A stretch of DNA of 41,431 bases from Aphanocapsa feldmannii 277cV (GTDB taxonomy: Bacteria > Cyanobacteriota > Cyanobacteriia > PCC-6307 > Cyanobiaceae): NCBI GenBank assembly GCA_004768415.1, contig SRMO01000050.1, positions 121,284 through 162,714 of the forward strand. The letters run 5' to 3'. Positions within the stretch are counted from its first letter, which is position 1. Every line of letters begins with the position of its first letter. This document shows, piece by piece, positions 13,198 to 15,040 of this stretch. The notes below the pieces were generated by a model. It had not been told where the DNA came from. It saw only the letters and a program-made list of their open reading frames with translations, and did not search any database. A program made the position numbers and the translations under genes.

Positions 13198-13315
13198 ACT
13201 TGGTATCCATAGCGCAGTAGAACCACTCCGATCCATCCCGAACTCGGCTGTGAAATGCTGCTACGGCGACGATAGTTAGGGGGTTGCCCCTTGTGAAAAT
13301 AGCTCGATGCCAAGT
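13198..13315 (+). rRNA. rrf: 5S ribosomal RNA
   Basis: ACTTGGTATCCATAGCGCAGTAGAACCACTCCGATCCATCCCGAACTCGGCTGTGAAA...GATGCCAAGT; terminal stem ACTTGGTATC/GATGCCAAGT. Confidence 0.95.
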
Positions 13316-13344
13316 TAAGCTTTTTGTTAATTTATTTTAACAGT

Positions 13345-13378
13345 AAGAAAGAGTCTCTTTAATTAGGGACTCTTTCTT
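13345..13378 (+). terminator. Putative rrn operon terminator
   Basis: AAGAAAGAGTC (13345-13355) / GACTCTTTCTT (13368-13378): perfect 11-bp stem, 12-nt loop, 30 nt after 5S; moderately T-rich downstream. Confidence 0.65.
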
Positions 13379-13901
13379 GCTGTTTCTTTCTAAGCTTTGG
13401 AAAATCTGGATGTAAGCCACAAGTTGACCCTTGCAACATCGCCTCAGCCAGGAAGAGCGCCAGCGGATGCGCGGATGCAGAGTTTGCGGCACTGCTACCC
13501 AGGCAGATCCTGCCAACCTTCGTCGATCAGGGCATTGACATCGGGATTCTGAGGGAGAAGATGGATGAATCGCCGCCACAGTGGTGCGGCGAGCCTGGCT
13601 GCGTGAGCGGCATCGGCAAGCACGGAATGACCACCAGACAGGTCTTCCCATGACCAATTCAGCCTGATTCAAGGGTAGACTGCAGCTTTTAACTTGACAG
13701 CTCACGGCAAGATTTGCGATCAGATGCTGAGTTTACTATAATTGCCCTAAGTTTAGATAAATCGACATGGACAATCCAAGTCAATGCCTTCTCGAATCGA
13801 ATCGCTGTGAAGAATCACAACGAGACAAAATTTGCAAGTTAAAATATGTCAAGTTTTCAATACTTAAGTCTGCATGGGAATCTGTCAGGCAATTGGCAGA
13901 T

Positions 13902-14486
13902 ATGTCAATGAAATGGCATAGTCCATTTCATCCAGTTTCCGCTGTGGCCATGGTTATACTCGTGACAGTTTTTGTTGGGGATGCCCATGCTGCTTGCGAT
14001 AAAGACGCTAGAAAGCAGCACTACCGCTCCGAATGTCTGGAAGTTGAATATAAAAATTATGACAATATATGGAAAAAGAATAAAGTCACAGGACGTAATA
14101 TATGCTGGGAATATGGCAAGGTCGTTGCAAAAATCGATCTAATGAGTTGGAAGGACCGCACATGGCATTTGGAAACTTACAAACAAAGAGAATGGAATGG
14201 TGATGCAAATATTCGAGGTGTCTACTGCTGTGAGGATTTGAGCGATCTTTGCAATATTTCGGATATAGTGGATGCCGATTCGTGCCTTGAGCGATTTGCT
14301 CAAAGCCCCGCTGCCAATAAGTGTGATCCGCCGAAGGTAACTGTTTTTGGCGGTGATCAGTGCAAGTTTACAACATCGTGCGATACTCACATTTTTAGGA
14401 CGAGTTTGATCGTGAAGTGGATCGACGTTCCTGATAATCTCTACAGTTGCTACCCTGGATTGCTTCAACTCGGCCCTTGCCTCTAA
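13902..14486 (+). CDS. Orphan secreted cysteine-rich protein (unknown function)
   Basis: Start at ATG 13902 or 13908 gives an N-terminal signal peptide (MSMKWHSPFHPVSAVAMVILVTVFVGDAHA|ACDKD) and a mature ~165-aa protein with 12 Cys (ECLEVEYKNYDNIWKKNKVTGRNICWEYGKVV...GVYCCEDLSDLCN...). Track ORF starts upstream at 13767. Confidence 0.65.
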   Translation: MSMKWHSPFHPVSAVAMVILVTVFVGDAHAACDKDARKQHYRSECLEVEYKNYDNIWKKNKVTGRNICWEYGKVVAKIDLMSWKDRTWHLETYKQREWNGDANIRGVYCCEDLSDLCNISDIVDADSCLERFAQSPAANKCDPPKVTVFGGDQCKFTTSCDTHIFRTSLIVKWIDVPDNLYSCYPGLLQLGPCL

Positions 14487-14504
14487 GAGTTTGCTGAAAA
14501 ACTC
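14487..14504 (+). terminator. Hairpin immediately after the Cys-rich ORF stop codon
   Basis: GAGTTT (14487-14492)/AAACTC (14499-14504), 6-nt loop; no T-tract, so terminator role uncertain. Confidence 0.3.
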
Positions 14505-15040
14505 AGATCCCTTCTGGCACAATGGGGTCTTGCTTTTCTCAAGATGTCTTGCACTAGGGGGGAGCGACGCTTTGGACTAGGGCTGAGTACTGATGCTTCC
14601 AGCCATGTCTGTTATCACTCATGGCTGATTTACTTTTGGGCACCCCGAAAAATTGCCGCTTCCTCATTGACAAGTCCTGGTGACCGACGCAATCCCTTGT
14701 CACTATTGATGTCTTCATGGCAACGGGCCACCCACAGGGGAAGGTTGATTGATTTTTCGAGGTGCCTTTTTTCAGGATGCCCTACTTGCCAACGGCCGGA
14801 ACGCATCAGCAGCTGGGGGCACTGCAAACAAGCTGCTGCAGAGAAAGGATTGGAACCACTATGCCGCCTTGCCCCAGGTTTCGACCTGGCGGAAACCAGG
14901 ATGGGAGGCAACAGCGGGGCGCCGTTTCCGGCTCGGAGACCGGTCTACTTTGCCTTCGCGACATGCCTCCCGGATCGAAAGGGAGTCAGATCGGAAAACT
15001 GTGTAGGGCAAAAGGCCAACACAGCAGCTCCTGGGGCATC

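Follow-up and report, generated by a model that had tools for sequence, protein, structure and literature searches.

An expanded family of exported, cysteine-rich proteins in a single genome, with a putative cyanovirin-like domain in some members

The gene P0001 encodes one of about 40 paralogous proteins that are private to one genome among the collections searched. That the family is exported, rich in disulfides and under selection is well supported. All members share a previously undescribed N-terminal beta domain, and a C-terminal domain present in nine paralogs is probably related to the repeat of the cyanovirin family (CVNH). We give about even odds (roughly 0.5) to the reading that these are disulfide-stapled extracellular proteins that bind glycans or cell surfaces, some of them through the CVNH-like C domain.

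Results

P0001 lies in a window (the whole stretch of DNA analysed, 41,431 nucleotides) that has the following relevant features.

13199..13315, + strand: 5S rRNA, closing the rRNA operon, neighbour of P0001 on the left
13902..14486, + strand: coding sequence of P0001, 194 codons (194 aa) plus stop; ATG at 13902, TAA ending at 14486
13902..13991, + strand: Sec-type signal peptide with a signal peptidase I-like site, AHA/AC; residues 1-29 modelled with low confidence
13992..14264, + strand: N-terminal domain, residues 31-121, seven-stranded beta, 6 Cys, common to the whole family (family profile, alignment, models); no known family or fold
14265..14483, + strand: C-terminal domain, residues 122-194, 6 invariant Cys, CVNH half-repeat-like, in nine paralogs (alignment, model, HMM/hhalign)
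14487..14511, + strand: 25-bp repeat GAGTTTGCTGAAAAACTCAGATCCC, directly after the stop of P0001; three other paralogs have inexact copies next to them
14632..14772, no strand assigned: MITE-like palindromic repeat of about 140 bp, just downstream of P0001; occurs at least 40 times genome-wide, clustered near family genes
14849..15033, - strand: 6S RNA, right neighbour of P0001

Since the paralogs open with MKW or MTW ('MKWN...'), translation of P0001 probably starts from the second ATG (13908). After AHA, the mature protein holds 12 Cys in 164 residues (7.3%), an adjacent CC included, which bears out the Cys count and the CC of a sequence-only reading of this DNA; the share of Cys in the 15 other genes of the window is 1.15% (binomial P = 5e-7). 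The unusual local composition remarked on in that reading was also evident, the coding sequence having a GC content of 0.44 and a GC3 of 0.43 against a mean GC3 of 0.81 across the same 15 genes. Indeed, the family genes were AT-rich relative to the genome in 30 of 30 cases measured (GC 0.38-0.60). Horizontal acquisition, which had been read from this composition, is nevertheless unproven, because neither a donor nor an outside homologue was found. The AT-richness could equally stem from a late arrival with later expansion or from a composition that has relaxed in intergenic regions rich in repeats.

A search with the P0001 protein alone returned 33 matching places in its own genome and none in 98 relatives, and a profile built from 30 members returned 44 places in the own genome (a 2.55 Mb draft in 100 contigs, with all counts made through searches and fetched regions). 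The profile matched none of 399 further genomes from the same taxonomic family and none of 338 others sampled across the phylum, a sample that overlaps with the former set. Peptide-pattern scans of named prokaryote contigs and searches of viral contigs, plasmids and phages, all of which depend on close similarity and may overlook remote relatives, likewise gave no relatives. The description of the protein as an orphan thus stands outside its genome, in these collections, but fails within it: following up homologue distribution, as had been proposed, placed all of the approximately 40 paralogs in the own genome. The genome has no congener in the search set, and its best 16S identity is 97%. The family genes are mostly scattered rather than gathered in one operon, and broken or truncated copies are present; the family most likely evolves by birth-and-death in repeat-rich intergenic regions.

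In all 33 intact paralogs examined, a hydrophobic stretch was followed by an AxA-type cleavage site. The mature Cys count was even in each of them (4, 6, 8 or 12, with no odd count), although the 33 share ancestry and so are not 33 independent events. All 12 Cys were invariant in an alignment of the nine two-domain members. Members with a 'YYC' motif form a single clade (support 97/93) and have neither the leading Cys of the CC nor the one in 'DLC'; since C109 and C117 are missing together, we predict that they form a disulfide pair. Additionally, the paralogs L021, L056 and L011 have two extra Cys apiece. Cysteines in this family are therefore gained and lost in pairs. Among the 25 closest paralog pairs, dN/dS was 0.11-0.76 wherever dS could be estimated and in no case exceeded 1, which indicates that the proteins are under selection. 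These results agree with the export and disulfide stabilisation proposed from the sequence, and with the Cys conservation that was to be checked. A lipoprotein reading was considered for the short forms with 'VLA(S/A)C' and may hold for these, but across the family it is disfavoured by the even Cys counts and by the residues that L034 has inserted ahead of C1.

Two architectures occur, the N domain (about 95 residues) alone or followed by the C domain (about 70 residues). Four short members nest inside the long-form clade of the tree, and the C-domain HMM found no remnant near them; in these four the C domain has therefore apparently been lost. AlphaFold2, run with nine sequences, gave a confident beta-rich model, most of mature P0001 having a pLDDT above 90. 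A model of the N domain from 30 sequences was similar to the N domain of the P0001 model. The modelled order is seven strands in the N domain, and a helix, three strands, a helix and a hairpin in the C domain. Foldseek comparison of both models with the PDB and viral models returned nothing at E <= 0.001; the weak listings for the N domain included Ena1C, FnIII-type sandwiches and SIX8. Consistent with the remark that no standard domain was recognisable, searches of Pfam, NCBIfam, PHROGs, PADLOC and PDB sequences assigned no family to the P0001 protein, and no match passed a curated cut-off in the family libraries. For toxin, defence and phage families, Pfam, NCBIfam, PHROGs and PADLOC gave only scattered matches of single members (E 0.004-0.26). 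The N domain is thus a previously undescribed beta domain, without match to a known family or fold in these searches.

The strand order of the C domain and its motif C..N.....A.C....SI.......N..G.L resembled a cyanovirin half-repeat, and we therefore compared the two. CVNH loci were gathered with PF08881, their half-repeats were cut out by HMM, and these were aligned to the C-domain alignment with hhalign. The profiles matched over 47 columns at 26% identity with a score of 23.3 (single-pair E 2e-4), compared with a mean of 8.8 (sd 1.9, maximum 16.6) for 200 column shuffles and a score of 10.2 for the N domain as a control. With a smaller CVNH set the score was 21.2, and the shuffles reached at most 15.3. 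Under a stricter null in which the Cys columns were fixed, one of 200 shuffles lay above the observed score, with an aberrant value of 137.7, and the rest fell below it. A CVNH repeat consists of three strands, a helix and a hairpin, an order that the P0001 model fits, and the likeness spans the whole half-repeat (C..N.....L.A.C....tSI.......N..G.L). When the C-domain HMM was run on the open reading frames of the fetched loci, both genuine CVNH proteins of this genome (see below) were among the weak matches from outside the family.

There are also differences from CVNH. None of 30 family members matched PF08881 even at E <= 1, let alone at its gathering score. CVNH domains normally comprise two intertwined repeats, whereas P0001 has a single repeat-like stretch (residues ~135-191) in place of two tandem repeats of about 50 residues. 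Most of the aligned CVNH half-repeats have a single Cys pair, compared with six Cys in the P0001 C domain, which is also fused to an unrelated N domain. Although the modelled strand order fits, the 50 best PDB matches of the full model in Foldseek included no cyanovirin. Taken together, profile and motif give moderate support to the view that the C domain is probably kin to CVNH, not a standard member. Of the earlier guess at a toxin-, lectin- or inhibitor-like domain, the lectin-like part thereby gains specific support, for the C domain.

The same genome contains two genuine CVNH genes in tandem, both with hydrophobic N-terminal segments (L032, 2347-2862 and 3410-3928, on C29 of the own genome) and both scoring 42-43 bits against a Pfam cut-off of 24.5. 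They lie directly upstream of a short family paralog. CVNH was found in none of 299 other genomes of the same taxonomic family and in 14 of 390 genomes of the class, so that CVNH and the new family occur together in the sole same-family genome having either, a single case.

In three relatives (16S about 97% identical), the gene that precedes the rRNA operon is conserved, but the 6S/purK side does not adjoin the operon. P0001 therefore sits at a synteny break (window 13316-14848). Three kinds of repeat accompany the family. The 25-bp repeat GAGTTTGCTGAAAAACTCAGATCCC, perhaps an insertion-sequence end, has copies at window 14487-14511, L016 4985, L026 5830 and L032 3943. The MITE-like repeat has the ends GGGCACC..CGAAAAA / TTTTTCGAGGTGCC, and 12 of its 40 scored copies are no more than 500 bp away from a family gene against 0.8 expected, an approximately 15-fold enrichment that is inflated in part because repeats and family genes both sit in intergenic regions between conserved genes. 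Another interspersed repeat, of about 115 bp, lies close to many paralogs (e.g. L018 5041-5162).

Discussion

The results suggest a model whereby P0001, once exported through Sec, would be a two-domain protein that joins the N beta domain of the new family to a single-repeat cyanovirin-like domain. In the oxidising compartment reached after export, family members would fold with 2, 3, 4 or 6 disulfides and would act outside the cytoplasm as binding proteins. Their likely targets would be glycans or other surface structures of other cells, be it a eukaryotic host, grazers, neighbours or phages, and diversification of the paralogs could supply a repertoire of specificities. Binding to glycans or cell surfaces is probable chiefly for the two-domain members. 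We infer a lectin function, and a role in recognition between cells or of a host, from these likenesses; since the C domain is missing from most paralogs, lectin activity would not account for the family in its entirety. Tentatively, and at somewhat less than even odds, the approximately 40 secreted, disulfide-stapled binders, some with a single-repeat cyanovirin-like module, may constitute a new extracellular recognition repertoire directed at host, predator or phage surfaces.

Several other explanations have to be weighed against extracellular binding. A spurious open reading frame with chance cysteines might fit the empty family-library searches, but is refuted by some 40 conserved paralogs with invariant Cys and a dN/dS below 1; the sequence-only reading had itself allowed for an open reading frame without Cys-conserving homologues, and this is not what was found. 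It is also unlikely, though less decidedly so, that these are secreted antagonistic proteins, similar to bacteriocins or effectors and diversified in an arms race, with the N domain as the active part. Many divergent, secreted, Cys-rich paralogs with truncated or pseudogenised copies are typical of arms-race families, and the N domain has a weak fold likeness to the fungal effector SIX8 (prob 0.38, E 0.68). However, toxin and defence families were not matched in the four libraries, the neighbours of P0001 are 5S rRNA and 6S RNA with no immunity gene identified beside it, and none of the closest pairs has a dN/dS above 1.

Self-assembly into a matrix, sheath or fibre, with subunits cross-linked by disulfides in the manner of Ena, appears quite unlikely. 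Ena subunits are small beta domains in which Cys matter, and cross-linked assemblies would suit Cys-rich secreted beta domains. Moreover, the Bacillus Ena1C ring (PDB 9t3p) was the best PDB match of the N-domain model (prob 0.60) and was listed for the full model (prob 0.75). These matches are non-significant, with E values of 0.17-0.29 and TM-scores below 0.4, and no sequence relation between Ena1C and the family was found; in addition, an even number of Cys per chain points to intramolecular pairing, and the genes do not form one operon. A selfish or neutral expansion, in which gene-bearing, MITE-associated repeats spread through intergenic regions with little function for the cell, is very unlikely. 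The concentration of the MITE-like repeat around family genes, the recurrence there of the ~115 bp and 25-bp repeats and the several broken copies would all be in keeping with it. Against this, the coding sequences are under purifying selection, Cys parity holds in 33 of 33 paralogs, and the shared intergenic setting exaggerates the MITE enrichment.

Should the preferred reading of extracellular binding proteins be correct, the family may help the cell to stick to or recognise other cells. Picocyanobacterial genomes are compact, and to devote some 40 genes within 2.5 Mb to a single private exported family is therefore a striking investment. It suggests that this lineage has an extracellular life so far unrecognised, such as host association, grazer defence or phage avoidance. 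The C domain would add a candidate single-repeat member to the relatives of cyanovirin, whose antiviral lectins are of practical interest. The undescribed disulfide-rich beta domain, in its versions with 4, 6 and 8 Cys, provides a natural series for the pairwise gain and loss of disulfides.

Other expanded families offer partial parallels. Prochlorosins are exported paralogous peptides, dozens of which can occur in one picocyanobacterial genome; they are short lanthipeptide precursors with conserved leaders, whereas the P0001 family consists of folded proteins exported by Sec. The Hcp proteins of Helicobacter pylori are made of helical Sel1 repeats, in contrast to the predicted beta-rich structure of the P0001 family. 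The Hcp and P0001 families are both lineage-specific, multi-copy families of Cys-rich paralogs, Hcp being an example of an expanded secreted family of this type (PMC3608669). The partial text of papers on 'Ca. Synechococcus spongiarum' (PMC5408123, PMC5331489, PMC12997750) does not mention a family such as that of P0001, and a paper on dinoflagellate cyanobionts (PMC11150560) contained no matching terms.

Finally, from its rRNA, neighbours and kinship, the organism looks like a marine-type picocyanobacterium, and an association with a host is possible. Because its genome has a few ankyrin matches, we considered whether it is the sponge symbiont 'Ca. Synechococcus spongiarum'; the rfbB that it also contains was no help in telling the two apart. 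The sponge-symbiont group is more likely to be represented by another genus in the search set, g9, whose best full-length 16S match is 94% identical to that of the own genome. The three genomes of g9 (G008, G100 and G128) have 10-32 ankyrin-repeat matches each, far above the other members of the same taxonomic family.
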